Below are positions 160-41,270 of a stretch of DNA of 64,000 nucleotides, one piece after another. Made by a program: the position numbers and the translations under genes. The notes under the pieces were generated by a model, which was not told where the DNA came from, made no database searches, and saw nothing but the letters and a program-made list of their open reading frames with translations. The stretch lies in NCBI GenBank assembly GCA_947629335.1, contig CANRDI010000001.1, forward strand, positions 1 to 64,000, written 5' to 3'. Numbering within the stretch: the stretch's first letter is position 1; each line of letters begins with the position of its first letter. This DNA comes from an uncultured Clostridia bacterium (GTDB lineage Bacteria > Bacillota > Clostridia > Oscillospirales > Ruminococcaceae).

Positions 160-1179
160 ATGAAAATAGTAATAGACGGCTTCGGCGGCGACAATGCGCC
201 GGACGAGGTGCTTAAAGGCTCGGCGCTCGCGGTAAAGGAACTTGGGATTGAAGTTATAGTTACGGGCGATGTTAAAGTCCTTGAAGAAAGGACAAAGGCA
301 TTAGGACTTTCACAGCAGGGGATAACGTTTGCCCCCGCACAGGGTGTTATAACCACCGAGGACAACCCAAAGTCCATATTGAAAGAGAAAGCGGGAACGT
401 CAATGGGCGTCGCTTTCAATATCCTCGCCGAAGGCAAAGCCGACGCGGCTATTTCAGCAGGAAGCACTGCGTCTATCGTTATCGGTGGGACAATGATCGA
501 AAAACGCATAAAGGGCGTAAAGAGAACGGCTCTTGTGCCGCTTATGCCGTGCCTCGGAGGAGTGAGATACTGCGTGCTTGACGGAGGGGCAAATTTAGAC
601 TGCCGTCCGGAGATGCTGCTCCAGTTTGCGATAATGGGAAGCTGTTTTATGAAAGCAACAATGGATATAGAAGATCCGCGCGTGGGCTTGCTCAATATCG
701 GCACTGAGGACGAAAAGGGCAGAGAGCTTGAACACGAAACAAAATTACTTCTTGAAAAAGCTCCGATAAATTTCGTCGGATATGTAGAAGCGCGCGAAGT
801 TCCGCTCGGCGCGGTAGATGTGCTTGTAACGGACGGATTTACGGGAAATGTATTCTTGAAAGCCTGCGAGGGAATGGGCGCGCTTATGAAAACGGCGCTT
901 AAAAACATTTTTTACGCGAATTTAAAGACAAAGATCGGCGCGCTTTGTGTAAAAGACCGACTTAATGATTTCATAGCGCAAATGGACTATAAAACCATAG
1001 GCGGATCGCCGCTTCTGGGTACGGCAAAACCTGTTTTCAAAGCGCACGGCGCTTCGGACGAGCTTGCTTTTCTCGGAGCATTCCGTCAGGCAAAGCTCTT
1101 TGTCGAGCATAACGCGATCGACGAAATGACTAAAGCAATAGCAAGTCTTCATATCGAGGAGGCTTCGGAAAATGCCTGA
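160..1179 (+). CDS. plsX: Phosphate acyltransferase PlsX
   Basis: MKIVIDGFGGDNAPDEVLKG...; PlsX family motifs; RBS aaggag upstream. Confidence 0.95.
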   Translation: MKIVIDGFGGDNAPDEVLKGSALAVKELGIEVIVTGDVKVLEERTKALGLSQQGITFAPAQGVITTEDNPKSILKEKAGTSMGVAFNILAEGKADAAISAGSTASIVIGGTMIEKRIKGVKRTALVPLMPCLGGVRYCVLDGGANLDCRPEMLLQFAIMGSCFMKATMDIEDPRVGLLNIGTEDEKGRELEHETKLLLEKAPINFVGYVEAREVPLGAVDVLVTDGFTGNVFLKACEGMGALMKTALKNIFYANLKTKIGALCVKDRLNDFIAQMDYKTIGGSPLLGTAKPVFKAHGASDELAFLGAFRQAKLFVEHNAIDEMTKAIASLHIEEASENA

Positions 1180-2137
1180 ACGAAATGCAATCGAACAAAA
1201 AGCATCTGAATGGAAACCAACCGAACGGAAACCAATTGAACCAAAAGCAACCGAACGGAAACCAATTGAACCAAAACAAACCGAACGGAAAGCAACAGAA
1301 CGGAAATCATCAGAATGGAAAACGAGCGGACGTAAAATGTCCAAACGCAAATCCGCAGGACGGATAATGCCGAAAAAGAAAAAGCCCGAACGGAAAATGC
1401 CCGAACTAAAAACTCCCAAACAAAATGCCGAGCTAAAATCGACGGAAAATGAGAGCCTTAAAGATCTTGAAGAAAAAATCGGCTACAAGTTTAAAAGGCG
1501 CGAGCTTTTGAAAATGGCAATGACGCATTCGAGCTATTCCGGAGGAAAAAAACGCGGAAGCAACGAGCGTCTCGAATTCCTCGGCGACAGCGTTTTACAG
1601 GTAACTGTTTCACAGTTTTTGTACATGAATATGACGACAGTTCCCGAAGGCGGTCTTACAAAGCTCCGTGCGTCAATTGTCTGCGAAAATTCGCTCTATG
1701 AGTTTTCAAAAAGGATCTCGCTCGGAAACTACATACTTCTCGGAAAAGGCGAGGAGATGACGGGCGGGCGCGACAGACGCTCTATTTTGGCGGACGCATT
1801 TGAGGCGATGATAGCGGCGGTCTATATAGACGGCGGATTAAATGCGGCGATGGATGTGATAATGCGGTTTATGCCGTCGATAGACGCGCTGAGGTCGGGA
1901 AAGGTAAGGCTCGGAGATTATAAAACAATCTTACAGGAGATAATACAGAAAAACCCCGAAGAGAAAATTTCGTACGAGGTCGAGGAGACTTCGGGAAAAC
2001 AGCACAAAAAAGTATTTTTTGCAAACGTTATGCTTAACGGTCAGACCATAGGCAGCGGAAGCGGATTTTCAAAAAAAGAAGCCGAACAGGAGGCTGCGAA
2101 AGAAGCTATCCTGCTTATGGGCTATGATATAGGATAA
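1172..2137 (+). CDS. rnc: Ribonuclease III with a long repetitive basic N-terminal extension
   Basis: Core LEEKIGYKFKRRELLKMAMTHSSY...NERLEFLGDSVLQ plus C-terminal dsRBD (GSGSGFSKKEAEQEAAKEAI); GGAGG upstream of the ATG at 1172. Confidence 0.93.
   Translation: MPERNAIEQKASEWKPTERKPIEPKATERKPIEPKQTERKATERKSSEWKTSGRKMSKRKSAGRIMPKKKKPERKMPELKTPKQNAELKSTENESLKDLEEKIGYKFKRRELLKMAMTHSSYSGGKKRGSNERLEFLGDSVLQVTVSQFLYMNMTTVPEGGLTKLRASIVCENSLYEFSKRISLGNYILLGKGEEMTGGRDRRSILADAFEAMIAAVYIDGGLNAAMDVIMRFMPSIDALRSGKVRLGDYKTILQEIIQKNPEEKISYEVEETSGKQHKKVFFANVMLNGQTIGSGSGFSKKEAEQEAAKEAILLMGYDIG
1178..1417 (+). repeat. 15-bp minisatellite (about 16 degenerate units) encoding the pentapeptide repeat [E/G/K]-[R/W/P]-K-x-[T/S/P] in the RNase III N-terminus
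   Basis: Translation divides as ERNAI EQKAS EWKPT ERKPI EPKAT ERKPI EPKQT ERKAT ERKSS EWKTS GRKMS KRKSA GRIMP KKKKP ERKMP ELKTP. Confidence 0.9.
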
Positions 2138-2138
2138 A

Positions 2139-3137
2139 TTGCACTCGGATATGAAGAAAACAAACGTCAGCATTTTTATTCCGCATATAGGCTGTCCTCA
2201 TTTGTGCAGTTTCTGCGATCAGAAAAGTATTTCTGGTGCGGTAAAAGCGCCTTCGGCAAGCGAGGTGCGGGATGTACTGAACGAGCAGGCGGAGCATTTG
2301 CTGAAAAATAATATTTCTGCTGAAATAGCGTTTTTCGGCGGGAGCTTTACCGCGATAGAACGCGGGTATATGGAGAGCCTTCTTGACGCCGCGAAAAGCG
2401 CGGTAGATAAATTTCCCGCTTATACGGGAATACGCTGTTCTACAAGACCCGACTGTATAAGCGAGGAAATTATAGACATACTTAAACGCTATGGAGTTAC
2501 GGCGGTAGAGCTTGGCGCTCAGTCAATGAACGACGAAGTTCTTAAAGCAAACGAGCGCGGACATACGGCTGATGACGTGAGAAATGCCTCAAATCTCATA
2601 AAAAGCTCAGGTATTGAACTCGGACTTCAGATGATGACGGGGCTTTATCGTGATACTCCAGAAAATTGCCTTTATACTGCCGACGAATTTATAAAATTAA
2701 GTCCTAAAACCGTCAGGATATACCCGACGGTGATACTCAAAAACACCAAACTCGGCAAACTCTTTGAGAGCGGGGAATTTAAATCGTTTTCGTTTGAGGA
2801 AACAGTTGAGTTGTGCGCAAAATTGCTCAGAAAATTCACCGAAAAGGGCTTTCGCGTAATTCGCTTGGGACTTCACGCAAGTGCCGATGTAGAGCGCGAT
2901 ATGCTGGGGGGAACGTATCACCCCGCGCTTCGTGAGATAGTTGAAAGCAGGATCTTTTTGGAAGATCTGCAAATGCGCCTTTTTGATATGGAAAAGGGAA
3001 AATATACCGTTTATACCGACCCTAAAAATATCTCAAAGGCTGTAGGACAAAAGAAAAGCAATATAAACGCGCTTGCAGAGCTGGGTTATGAAATCAAGTT
3101 CAGACCTATGACGGGCGAGTATATTTTAATTGTATAA
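2139..3137 (+). CDS. Radical SAM protein (Elp3/HemN-like superfamily)
   Basis: IFIPHIGCPHLCSFCDQ CxxxCxxC motif, FFGGSFTAI; usual rnc-rSAM-smc context of Clostridia. Confidence 0.85.
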   Translation: MHSDMKKTNVSIFIPHIGCPHLCSFCDQKSISGAVKAPSASEVRDVLNEQAEHLLKNNISAEIAFFGGSFTAIERGYMESLLDAAKSAVDKFPAYTGIRCSTRPDCISEEIIDILKRYGVTAVELGAQSMNDEVLKANERGHTADDVRNASNLIKSSGIELGLQMMTGLYRDTPENCLYTADEFIKLSPKTVRIYPTVILKNTKLGKLFESGEFKSFSFEETVELCAKLLRKFTEKGFRVIRLGLHASADVERDMLGGTYHPALREIVESRIFLEDLQMRLFDMEKGKYTVYTDPKNISKAVGQKKSNINALAELGYEIKFRPMTGEYILIV

Positions 3138-3148
3138 AAGGAAGATAA

Positions 3149-6100
3149 ATGTTTTTTAAAACACTGAAAATACAAGGATTTAAGTCCTTTGCGGACAAAA
3201 CGGTGCTTTCATTCGACGCAAAAACGACGGCTGTCGTCGGAAGCAACGGAAACGGAAAAAGCAATATTTCTGACGCGCTGCGCTGGGTAATGGGAGAGCA
3301 GGGCGCGAAAACTCTGCGCGGAGAAAAAATGGAGGACGTTATCTTCCACGGAACCGTCGAGAGAAAGCCTATGGGTTTTGCGAGCGTTTCGCTTGTTATC
3401 GACAACAGCGACCGCACGCTCAATGTGGACGATAACGAGGTAGAAATATCGAGAAAGCTCTACAGAACTGGCGAGAGCGAATATTCGATAAACGGAAAGA
3501 AAACGCGCCTTAAAGATATTCAAGAATTGCTCATGGGAACGGGACTTGGGCGCGATGGCTATTCAATAATCGGACAGGGCAGGGTCGCGGAGATCGTAAA
3601 CTCCCGCGATACCCAGCGCCGGGAGATATTTGAAGAAGCGGCGGGAGTTTCGCTTTTCCTGCACAAAAAAGAGGACGCCGAAAAACAGCTTGCTCAGGCG
3701 GCGGAAAATATCACCCGCCAGCACGACTTGATACGCGCGGACGAGGAAAGACTTCCGATACTGAAAAAACAGTCGGAAAAAGCGGCGCTTGCGTCAGAGC
3801 TTATGACGCAGAAAAAGGAGCTTGAGATCTCAGTGAGCGTCGCAAGGCTAAAGGAAAAACGCGCCGAGCTTCAAAAACTTTCGGATGACATACTGCTGAA
3901 CAAAAGCGAATGTGAGCATTACGACCGCGATATAGAAAAATCGGAAAAAGAGATTGAAGAACTTGCAAATGAAAAACTTTCGGCAAACGCCGCGCTTGAC
4001 CGTATAAGAAACGAGATAAAAAGCGCGGGCGACATTCTCTCCGAAAAAAACGCGGCAATAAAGGTTGCGGAAAACGACCTCGGACATAACGAAAAGCGCA
4101 GAGCCGAGCTTAAAGAACAGCTCGAAAAGGCTCAGCAGAGCGATTTCGCATTTGATAAGCAGATTGGGGAAATAAACGAGAGAATAGACGAAAAAAACAA
4201 AAGCGCCGAAAACTTCGATATTAAGATATCCGAAGCGCAGCAAAAGCTCGACGAAATGTCAAAAGCAAATTCGTCGTCGGGAGAAGAATTTTCCGCGCTT
4301 GAAAGTGAGCTTGCCGCGGCATACCGCGAAAAGACCGAATATTCGCTTTTGATATCCCAATCGAATTTGTCGCTCGAAGAATCCGAAAAACAGAGATCCG
4401 CCTTTATAAATGCCCGCTCTGATTCGGAGAATAAAATATCAGAATACAGCGAAGAACTTTCAAAGGCAAAGAAAAGATCGTCGGAAATTGCAGAAGAAAA
4501 AGCGACAGCCGAAAACAGGCTCGGAGGAATGGAAAAGCTCTCAGAGGGCAGGAAAAAGCGCCTTGAAAGCGCGCGCGCCGCTCTTGACAGCTCCGTCGCT
4601 GCGCTCGGCGAAAAACAACAGCGCTATAAAGTCCTTTCCGACATCGAAAAGAGCAAAGAAGGCTATTTCCGCTCGGTAAAAGAAGTAATAAGCGCAGGCG
4701 AGCAGGGCAGACTTTCCGGGATACACGGAATAGTCGCGGACGTTATAACTGTTCCGAAAAAATATATCACCGCCGTAGAAACTGTCTTACAGCCCGTAAT
4801 GCAGAACATTATTGTAGACAACGAGCAGACCGCGAACCGCTGTATACTGTTTTTAAAAGAAACAAATGCGGGCAGAGCTACTTTTTATCCGCTTACGTCA
4901 ATTAAAAGCAGAAGTCTTAACGAGCAGAATTTGCGCTCGGAGAGCGGCTTTGAGGGAATAGCGAGCGAGCTTGTCGGATTTGACGACACTTATCGTAATA
5001 TAATCGGAAATCTCCTTGGAACAACGGTCGTTGTTGACGACATTTCAACAGCTACCGTAATAGGAAAGAAATACGGTTATAGGTTCAGGATAGTCACCCT
5101 CGACGGTCAGGTCGTAAATGCAGGCGGTTCTTTTACAGGTGGTTCGCAGATAAGCAGAGGCGGCATTATTTCGAGAAAACAGGAGACCGACGAGCTTTAT
5201 TCCGAGATAAAGACCCTGCGTGAAGGGGAAAAAGCAAAACGCGACGAGTTTGAAAAATGCCGCGCGGAATATGCGAAATTTTCCATTGAACTTGAGGGTA
5301 TGCAGGATAAGATACGCGAACTTGAACGCGAGGACATAAGCGTCGGCGCGGAGATCTCCCGCCTTTCGGGACTTATAGAACAGCTTTCCGAGCAGAAGAG
5401 ATCGTCCGATCTGACCTTAAAACAGTTTGACGAGCAAATCTCTCGCCTTGATGAAACAATAAGCGGCGCAAAAGCAAAGACCGACGATATTTCAAAGAAA
5501 ATAGAAAAGCTCGAAGCAGAGCATACCGTCCTGTCCGAACAGCGCGGAGAAGCTGAAAACAGGATAAAATCGCTGTATGACAGCATAAGCGCACTGAATA
5601 TGGAAAAAATGTCGGCAATAAAGGATATAGACGCGCTCAAAGCGCAGATAAAGAATATCGAAGAAAACCGCCGAACGCTTTTAGAAAACAGCGGCGGATT
5701 TCAGAGCGCAATGACCGCTTTAGACAGTTCCGACCGTGAGATACGCGAAAATATCGAGCGCTTGAAGCGCGAAATCTCGGCGCAGAGCGGCGAACTCACG
5801 GAAAAGAATGCCGAGATAGAAAGCTATGTAAAAGAGACAGAAGAGCTTGAACGGAAAATAAACGAACTTCATAAAAGCATAAACGAGCTGAACCGCGGCA
5901 AGGAAAAGTTTACGGGAGCAGCCGCGCGCCTTGAAGAGCGAAAGACCTCATCTCAAAAAGAATACGACAGGATAGTTGCGCTTTTGTTCGACAGCTACGA
6001 GCTTACCGTTTCACAGGCTGAACAGGAGGCGAAGCTTCCCGACGACCTTTTTGCCGCGGAAGCTGAGCTAAAGGAACTTACGAAAAAAATTACCGACCTT

Positions 6101-6730
6101 GGAAGCGTCAATATGGCGTCAATCGAGGAATACCGCGAGGTTTCCGCGCGCTATGAGTTTCAGTCTGCACAGCTTAGGGATATCGAAAGCTCAAAGCGCG
6201 ACCTCGAAAAACTTATAGAACAGCTCACCGCAGACATAAAAACGCGCTTTCTCGACAGTTTCAACGACATCAACCGCCATTTCAAAAACATCTTCACACA
6301 GATATTCGGTCCGGGTTCTCATGCGGAGCTTGAACTGACAGATCCCGACGATGTGCTTAATTCCGGCATAGAAATAAAAGCCGCGCCTCCGGGAAAAGTC
6401 ATAAAAAATCTTATTTCGCTTTCGGGCGGCGAGCAGACAATGGTCGCAATAACTATCTACTTCGCAATTCTTATGCACCGTCCGACACCGTTTTGTATGC
6501 TCGACGAGGTAGACGCGGCGCTCGACGAGGTAAATGTCGAAAAGTATATACATTATCTCAACCAGTTCAGCCGCACGACCCAGCTTATGGTAATAACCCA
6601 CCGCCGCGGAACTATCGAGGGATGTTCGGTATTATACGGCGTATTTATGCAGGAAAAGGGCGTTTCCAGACTGTTGAGGCAGGAGCTTAGCGACGAGCTT
6701 TCAGACGAGCTGAACGAAATAATAAAATAG
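3149..6730 (+). CDS. smc: Chromosome segregation protein SMC
   Basis: MFFKTLKIQGFKSFADKT, Walker A GSNGNGKSN, hinge, LSGGEQTMVAI signature, DEVDAALDE Walker B. Confidence 0.97.
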   Translation: MFFKTLKIQGFKSFADKTVLSFDAKTTAVVGSNGNGKSNISDALRWVMGEQGAKTLRGEKMEDVIFHGTVERKPMGFASVSLVIDNSDRTLNVDDNEVEISRKLYRTGESEYSINGKKTRLKDIQELLMGTGLGRDGYSIIGQGRVAEIVNSRDTQRREIFEEAAGVSLFLHKKEDAEKQLAQAAENITRQHDLIRADEERLPILKKQSEKAALASELMTQKKELEISVSVARLKEKRAELQKLSDDILLNKSECEHYDRDIEKSEKEIEELANEKLSANAALDRIRNEIKSAGDILSEKNAAIKVAENDLGHNEKRRAELKEQLEKAQQSDFAFDKQIGEINERIDEKNKSAENFDIKISEAQQKLDEMSKANSSSGEEFSALESELAAAYREKTEYSLLISQSNLSLEESEKQRSAFINARSDSENKISEYSEELSKAKKRSSEIAEEKATAENRLGGMEKLSEGRKKRLESARAALDSSVAALGEKQQRYKVLSDIEKSKEGYFRSVKEVISAGEQGRLSGIHGIVADVITVPKKYITAVETVLQPVMQNIIVDNEQTANRCILFLKETNAGRATFYPLTSIKSRSLNEQNLRSESGFEGIASELVGFDDTYRNIIGNLLGTTVVVDDISTATVIGKKYGYRFRIVTLDGQVVNAGGSFTGGSQISRGGIISRKQETDELYSEIKTLREGEKAKRDEFEKCRAEYAKFSIELEGMQDKIRELEREDISVGAEISRLSGLIEQLSEQKRSSDLTLKQFDEQISRLDETISGAKAKTDDISKKIEKLEAEHTVLSEQRGEAENRIKSLYDSISALNMEKMSAIKDIDALKAQIKNIEENRRTLLENSGGFQSAMTALDSSDREIRENIERLKREISAQSGELTEKNAEIESYVKETEELERKINELHKSINELNRGKEKFTGAAARLEERKTSSQKEYDRIVALLFDSYELTVSQAEQEAKLPDDLFAAEAELKELTKKITDLGSVNMASIEEYREVSARYEFQSAQLRDIESSKRDLEKLIEQLTADIKTRFLDSFNDINRHFKNIFTQIFGPGSHAELELTDPDDVLNSGIEIKAAPPGKVIKNLISLSGGEQTMVAITIYFAILMHRPTPFCMLDEVDAALDEVNVEKYIHYLNQFSRTTQLMVITHRRGTIEGCSVLYGVFMQEKGVSRLLRQELSDELSDELNEIIK

Positions 6731-6748: not shown

Positions 6749-7810
6749 ATGGGTTTATTTGATAAGTGGAAAAAACGAAACGAAAAAGCCGAAGAGGAAA
6801 GCCGCGAGCGGCTTGCGTTTCTCGAAAAACTTTCGAGCGGATCGCCGATATTTACCGACCATGAGTCCGATATCGAGTTCCAGAAGGAGTATGAAAAGGA
6901 GCTTGAAGAGTCCAAAAGCAAGATCCGCGAGGGACTTCGCAAGACAAAGGACGGCTTTGTCAGCAAGATAGAGCAGATAATCAATTCGTTTACGAAAATT
7001 GACGAGGAATTTTTTGACGAACTTGAAGAAACGCTTATACTTTCCGACATAGGCGCGCAGACAAGTGCCGAGATCTGCGAGGAACTGAGAAACCGCGTGA
7101 AGAAAACAGGCACGACCGAGCCTTCCGAGGTAAAACAGCTTTTAAAGGATATAATTTCCGAGATTTTGACAGGAGGAAACGATCTTAATTTAAGCACAAA
7201 GCCCTCCGTTATTATGGTCATCGGTGTAAACGGCGCGGGAAAGACGACTACTATAGGTAAAATGGCGGCAAAATTCAAGGCGAACGGAAAGAAAGTTATT
7301 GTTGCGGCAGCGGATACATTCAGAGCCGCGGCTATAGACCAGTTGAACGTATGGACAGACCGCGCGGGAGTTGATATTGTAAAACATTCCGAGGGCAGTG
7401 ACCCTGCGGCGGTTGTTTTCGACGCTATTTCCGCCGCAAAGGCAAGAGGCGCGGATATCGTGCTTTGCGATACGGCGGGCAGACTTCATAACAAGAAAAA
7501 CTTAATGGAAGAACTGAAAAAAATTGCCCGCGTCATTAACCGAGAGCTTCCCGAAGCAAGCATTGAAACGCTTTTGGTGCTTGACGCGACGACGGGACAA
7601 AACGCCGTAAATCAGGCGCGCCTTTTCAGCGAAAGCGCGGATATTACGGGAATAATCCTCACAAAACTCGACGGAACAGCTAAGGGCGGAATTATAATCC
7701 CGATAAGGAATGAGCTTGACTTGCCCGTAAAACTTGTGGGAGTAGGCGAAAAGATAGACGATCTACAGCCGTTTATACCGGAGGCGTATGTTGACGCGCT
7801 TTTTGAGTGA
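6749..7810 (+). CDS. ftsY: Signal recognition particle receptor FtsY
   Basis: [41 protein letters not shown] motifs. Confidence 0.97.
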
Positions 7811-24524: not shown

Positions 24525-24560
24525 AATAGAGGTAAGAATAAAAGTCGAACAACACTTCCT

Positions 24561-24965
24561 CTTTCCGACCGCTGCGCAAGAGGCGGCACATAAGTTTTCT
24601 GCGAATTATTTTGGGGGAAAACTTTTAAAAAAGTTTTCCCCCAAACCCCTTTTCAAAACTTTTGTGTTACTTGCAGTAATGGAAAAGCGTTTTCGCTTTC
24701 TAACTGCGCCGTAAGGCGCGGCACATAAGTTTTTTGCGAATTATTTGGGGGAAAACTTTAAAAAAAGTTTTCCCCCAAACCCCTTTTCAAAACTTTTATG
24801 TTACTTGCAGTAATTGGAAAAGCGTTTCCGCTTTCCGACCGTGCCGTAAGGCGCGGCACATAAGTTTTTTGCGAATTATTTTGGGGGAAAACTTTTGAAA
24901 AAGTTTTCCCCCAAACCCCTTTTCAAAACTTTTATGTTACTTGCAGTAATGGAAAAGCGGGTTCA
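24561..24965. repeat. Three tandem copies of a 135-bp hairpin-bearing repeat
   Basis: Unit 'ctttc..ac.g.gc.gtaaggcgcggcacataagttttttgcgaattatt.tgggggaaaactttt.aaaaagttttcccccaaaccccttttcaaaacttttatgttacttgcagtaatggaaaagcg' starts at 24561, 24696 and 24831. Confidence 0.92.
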
Positions 24966-40553: not shown

Positions 40554-40580
40554 TGGTAAGAATTGAAAAGGCGGACAGCA

Positions 40581-41270
40581 TTTCCATTACATCACGTTGC
40601 ATAAAAGTTTTGAAAAGGAGTTTGAGGGAAAACTTTTTCAAAAGTTTTCCCTCAATTGGGGCGCGGGAGCAGCGCCACCGCAAATCCGTCAACGGAAAAA
40701 ACTGTAAGGGGGAAGACCTTTTAAAAAAGGTTTTCCCCCTTTAACCCTCTTTCCAAAACTTTTATGTGCCGCGCCTTAAGGCGCAGTCGGAGAGCGGAAG
40801 TGCATTTCCATTACAGCACGTTACATAAAAATTTTGAAAAGGGGCTTGGGGAAAAACTTTTTCAAAAGTTTTTCCCCAATAGGGGCGCGGGGACGAAGCC
40901 CCCGCAAAGAAAAAATTAGCAAAAGTGCATTTCCATTACAGCATGTTGCATAAAAGTTTTGAAAAGGAGTTTGAGGGAAAACTTTTTCAAAAGTTTTCCC
41001 TCAATTGGGGCGCGGGAGCAGCGCTACCGCAAATCCGTCAACGGAAAAAATTGCAAGGGGGAAAACCTTTTAAAAAAGGTTTTCCCCCTTTAACCCTTTT
41101 TCCAAAACTTTTATGTGCCGCGCCTTGCGGCACGGTCGGAGAGCGGAAGTGCATTTCCATTACAGCACGTTACATAAAAATTTTGAAAAGGGGTTTGGGG
41201 GAAAACTTTTTTAAAAGTTTTCCCCCAAAAAACTAAAAAAACTTTCACGGTGCGTCTTTTGGTGCAATCG
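40581..41270. repeat. About 350-bp higher-order tandem duplication made of hairpin modules (same family as 24561..24965, opposite orientation)
   Basis: 'tttccattaca.cacgtt.cataaaa.ttttgaaaagg' recurs at about 40581, 40804, 40930 and 41154; each is followed by a perfect hairpin such as ttgagggaaaactttttcaaaagttttccctcaa. Confidence 0.88.

Follow-up and report, generated by a model that had tools for sequence, protein, structure and literature searches.

A coding minisatellite seeded by the rnc start site in a single clostridial lineage

Minisatellites that lie within genes and keep the reading frame are common. In prokaryotes, repeats are biased toward the 5′ ends of genes, a tendency reported for mononucleotide tracts in work cited by PMC2621210. 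Arrays of the heptamer TAACTGA lie just upstream of start codons in the Beggiatoaceae and are found also in Cyanobacteria and Bacteroidetes (PMC4679880). Here, we describe an array in rnc, the gene for RNase III of a gut bacterium that, judged by its relatives, is of the Oscillospiraceae type, within the window (the whole 64,000-nucleotide stretch of DNA that was analyzed), which appears to be built from the gene's own start site. Among open-licence papers, we found no precedent for an array of such origin or for an RNase III with such an N-terminal extension.

The rnc locus and its array

The window starts with the gene order plsX, rnc, radical SAM, smc-like, and ftsY-like, and its plsX-rnc neighborhood is the same as in congeners. 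plsX, encoding phosphate acyltransferase (160 to 1179, forward strand; TIGR00182, E value 3.3e-90), ends with a TGA at 1177-1179. rnc (1172 to 2137, forward strand; 321 aa; TIGR02191, E value 6.8e-73; Pfam PF14622, PF00636, and PF00035) begins at an ATG at 1172 that overlaps the plsX 3′ end. The radical SAM gene (2139-3137) was named by profile match, the smc-like (3149-6730) and ftsY-like (6749-7810) genes from their translations only.

By its sequence, rnc encodes a genuine bacterial RNase III with an ordinary core domain order and putative dsRNA cleavage activity. The core, composed of the nuclease domain and the dsRBD, spans residues 93 to 321 (1448 to 2134, forward strand), and its identity with congeneric cores reaches 85%. 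A profile search matched TIGR02191 at residues 99 to 313 (244.8 bits; curated cut-off, 166.25) and PF00035, the dsRBD, at residues 250 to 314; to residues 1 to 92 it matched no family. The core that is shared with congeners begins at residue 93, about where the earlier note had placed it. In an alignment of 35 RNase III sequences, the ERLEFLGDS signature is conserved, and N131, R133-D139, D208, and E211, which include acidic active-site residues, are invariant. This protein is the sole PF14622 match in the genome.

Among the matches listed, RNase III is present in at least 194 of the 197 genomes of the order, and three genomes of the same family (G107, G141, and G222) have three to five TIGR02191 matches instead of one. 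In G028, the window RNase III matches nothing but a divergent RNase III-like protein (L136; contig 19, 200-3500) that shares 29% identity with the window core and has a long C-terminal part, seemingly with two dsRBD-like stretches.

Between codon 3 of rnc and the core lies an insertion of exactly 267 bp (1181-1447) that encodes 89 extra residues and is purely array, with no other inserted sequence. Sixteen in-frame 15-bp units with the consensus protein [R/P]Kx[T/P/S]E (1181 to 1420, forward strand) are followed by two decayed units recognized by reading the sequence (1421 to 1447, forward strand): a 12-bp unit, CAAAATGCCGAG (1421-1432), which encodes QNAE, and a final 15-bp unit, CTAAAATCGACGGAA (1433-1447), which encodes LKSTE. 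No stop or frameshift interrupts these 18 units, and the single length change, of 3 bp, is in frame. TRF reported arrays with periods of 15, 30, and 45 over 1176-1438 (scores, 108 to 142). With head-to-tail units of at least 10 bp, a frame-keeping length, and an open array, this is a coding minisatellite. Thus, the 16-unit, 15-bp in-frame minisatellite of the earlier note is real, while its end has to be moved from 1417 to 1447 to take in two further units.

The near-perfect duplication of a central 30-bp double unit, also described before, is evident as well: 1226-1255 and 1256-1285 (together 1226 to 1285, forward strand) share 28 of 30 bases. Units 4 and 6 do not differ at all, and neighboring units agree at about 9 to 10 of 15 positions. 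This similarity is moderate, so the greater part of the array must be old and has decayed; the central doublet alone is clearly recent.

TRF detected no coding repeats comparable to the rnc array elsewhere in the window. At 24556-24959, an intergenic repeat of 135 bp that contains strong inverted stretches (GGGGGAAAACTTTT...AAAAGTTTTCCCCC) occurs three times in tandem in the window, and at 40578-41228 there are two tandem copies, 95% identical, of a 349-bp repeat that looks noncoding; the two loci have a AAAAGTTTT/GGGAAAACTTTT motif in common. On another contig of the window's genome (L123; G000 contig 34, 1498-1551), three 17-bp repeats of TTTCCGAACGGAAAATC directly follow the terminator-like hairpin of an EF-Tu gene. 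The string CGAACGGAAAAT is common to these repeats and the rnc array, probably by chance.

Origin of the array from the rnc start site

We compared rnc 5′ ends across 29 congeneric genomes with a readable rnc start. All 29 lack the array and have an ATG, a few residues, and then the core. Copy number does differ between related genomes, with no inserted units in the 29 congeners and 18 here, a difference between species. In the nearest array-less congeners, the start site is letter-identical to that of the window, GAGGAGGCTTCGGAAAATGCCTGAA, and is followed directly by the core sequence. On a core-protein tree, the window gene is nested within an array-less clade (support, 100/99), indicating that the array was gained here and not lost in the others. 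From these sequence comparisons, we conclude that the array arose in a single lineage.

A wider TRF scan of 111 loci near the rnc start, among which single genomes are in part represented more than once, returned a 15-bp array in the window genome only; at one locus (L054), a 12-bp repeat is present in two copies. In a survey of the order, long upstream open frames before RNase III, among the matches listed, had no evident tandem repeats in those that were read. G051, G070, G105, G128, G164, and others were considered as further extended RNase III genes and were set aside, as their frames mostly seem to run through the upstream gene.

What abuts the 5′ side of the insertion is a 15-mer, CGGAAAATGCCTGAA (CGGAAA-ATG-CCT-GAA; 1166 to 1180, forward strand), which consists of the last 6 nt before the start, the ATG, and codons 2 and 3, and which also contains the plsX stop. 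Since array-less congeners have this 15-mer, it is ancestral and the likely progenitor of the array. Compared in phase, it matches the 16 units at a mean of 9.69 of 15 positions, against a window background of 3.92 (standard deviation, 1.31), and only 2 of 63,691 other 15-mers of the window match the units as well. Three units keep the ancestral ATG in phase: unit 11 (Met56, codon at 1337 to 1339, forward strand), unit 13 (Met66, codon at 1367 to 1369, forward strand), and unit 15 (1391 to 1405, forward strand), CGGAAAATGCCCGAA, whose ATG is Met76 and which agrees with the ancestral 15-mer at 14 of 15 positions. The in-phase match and the retained ATGs lead us to conclude, at the level of sequence, that the array began when the rnc start was duplicated in tandem. 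Most units match the 15-mer at 7 to 12 of 15 positions, and with this much decay the order of expansion is beyond reconstruction.

Codon usage in the tail bears the same mark. CGG accounts for six of the nine Arg codons and CCA for five of the 10 Pro codons, versus ∼4% of Arg codons and ∼4% of Pro codons, respectively, in neighboring genes. The recurring Arg-Lys and the odd codons are explained if the spacer CGGAAA, formerly noncoding in this frame, is now translated.

In the scenario that we favor, CGGAAAATGCCTGAA would have been tandemly duplicated in one lineage and expanded until ∼18 units had been added, through replication slippage, as we infer, or through unequal recombination. The product would be a disordered, basic tail of 89 residues that takes its Arg-Lys pairs from the spacer and its internal Met residues from copied start codons. 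The unit length, 15 bp, is divisible by three, the plsX stop precedes the insertion, and the Shine-Dalgarno sequence is not part of the unit; all units would therefore be in frame and read from the original ATG. The position of the insertion also leaves plsX intact. We consider it likely that a start-born minisatellite of this kind extends an otherwise normal RNase III, that its translation begins at the first ATG, and that it is tolerated as a nearly neutral change at the exposed N terminus of the enzyme.

Function and translation of the tail

The earlier note called the N-terminal extension highly basic, and residues 1 to 92 indeed have a computed charge of about +14.5 at pH 7 and a pI of 10.35, compared with about +1 for the core. 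AlphaFold2 gave pLDDT values of <50 for residues 2 to 80, a helix from residue 82, and a confident core; the 89-residue tail is thus predicted to be disordered. These properties, together with the fact that the substrate of RNase III is dsRNA and that most units retain K at their second position and E at their fifth, are what a selected, expandable Lys/Arg/Glu linker would have if it tuned the binding of RNase III to RNA or ribosomes and evolution used copy number as the dial. However, unit-to-unit pN/pS is 0.69 in the coding frame and 0.83 and 0.72 in the other two (16 nonindependent units), revealing no frame-specific purifying selection on the tail, and all relatives with a readable start lack it. 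The spacer sequence is enough to account for the basic residues. As for the GAA and AAA codons of the array, their synonymous sites hardly vary either, and their conservation therefore looks like DNA-level kinship. The binding role that was proposed for the repeat thus gained no support, and we regard a selected linker as rather unlikely.

The lack of frame-specific constraint among units favors a tolerated, near-neutral expansion, and the tail, judged from 16 nonindependent units, probably has little or no function. It may plausibly add at most a weak, nonspecific affinity for RNA, from its charge alone. It is unlikely, in our judgment, that the start-seeded array, having turned noncoding spacer into a basic, RNA-friendly tail, alters both the length of RNase III and its possible start points through spare ATGs, and is perhaps a selected regulator of RNA turnover. 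An mRNA structure for RNase III autoregulation was considered and rejected, as no fold signal for a structured element was found at 1140-1500 (z score, +0.82).

The Shine-Dalgarno sequence of rnc, GAGGAGG (1156 to 1162, forward strand), lies 9 nt before the ATG and is identical in array-less congeners G002, G005, G007, and G010, bearing out the GGAGG that was reported at proper spacing before the 1172 ATG overlapping plsX. Its duplex energy is −11.6 kcal/mol, versus −5.9 kcal/mol or weaker at internal ATGs (−3.5 kcal/mol at Met56 and −1.1 kcal/mol at unit 15). It was not copied, as it sits just outside the repeat unit, and its presence only at the first ATG makes it very likely that translation begins at 1172 and includes the tail. 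A star-like neutral simulation yielded stop-free arrays in 6 to 9% of cases (P of about 0.06 to 0.09), and an open array by itself therefore lends translation little support.

Alternatively, the real start could be one of the copied ATGs, of which Met66 is the best candidate; most of the array would then be an untranslated leader, and the enzyme would have an extension of ∼27 residues or exist in mixed forms. The internal ATGs are copies of a true start, Met66 is preceded by an SD-like AGGACGG (−5.9 kcal/mol), and no unusual RNA structure is predicted over the internal ATGs (z score, +0.82). However, the ancestral Shine-Dalgarno sequence and its ATG have been preserved, with pairing of twice that strength (−11.6 kcal/mol), and 18 frameshift-free units are best explained by translation from the first ATG. 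We consider an internal start quite unlikely.

It is very unlikely that a ready-made minisatellite or mobile repeat came from elsewhere and was inserted at codon 3. The insert is clean, as this origin would predict, and a 21-bp stretch of the array has an exact match in a relaxase-like gene of G001 (L132; contig 71, 486-506; peptide KPIEPKQ). However, the native 15-mer that abuts the insert is itself a repeat unit, the insert is wholly array with no element ends, and the G001 match is isolated, does not lie in an array, and is probably due to chance. We found no second copy of the array in the genome and no matches to it in plasmid, phage, and viral-contig collections; the ends, target-site duplication, and further copies that mark a mobile element are missing. 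An assembly artefact is extremely unlikely: the genome is a draft in 50 contigs, but it is of high quality, with 100% completeness and 0.67% contamination, and the array is short (267 bp), in frame, and made of units of which almost none are alike.

Comparison with known repeat systems

A start-born array makes a de novo protein extension traceable, with its progenitor, its insertion point, the empty sites of sister species, and the reading-frame origin of its residues all in view. In-frame tandem duplication of a purine-rich ribosome-binding spacer would give a Lys/Arg-rich disordered tail, and RNA enzymes in general may have acquired basic N-terminal tails in this way. Annotation of start sites and arguments for linker function both call for comparison with such empty sites.

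The window enzyme has the core domain order and signature motif of bacterial RNase III (TIGR02191) and differs in its 89 additional N-terminal residues; congeners have ∼0 to 14 residues before the core. Like bacterial coding minisatellites and VNTRs, its array is an in-gene tandem repeat with a unit of 3n bp that yields a low-complexity, disordered segment and has undergone a recent double-unit duplication. Unlike in those, what is repeated is the segment from which the gene's own translation starts, part of it noncoding spacer. Its position at the very beginning of the gene agrees with the 5′-end bias cited in PMC2621210, and unlike the mononucleotide tracts of that source, a 15-bp unit cannot shift the frame. 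With the TAACTGA arrays (PMC4679880), it has in common a tandem array at a translation start. Whereas in those arrays the same heptamer recurs at many loci and mostly precedes the start codon, the array in the window belongs to one gene, has a private unit, and follows the start codon as part of the reading frame.
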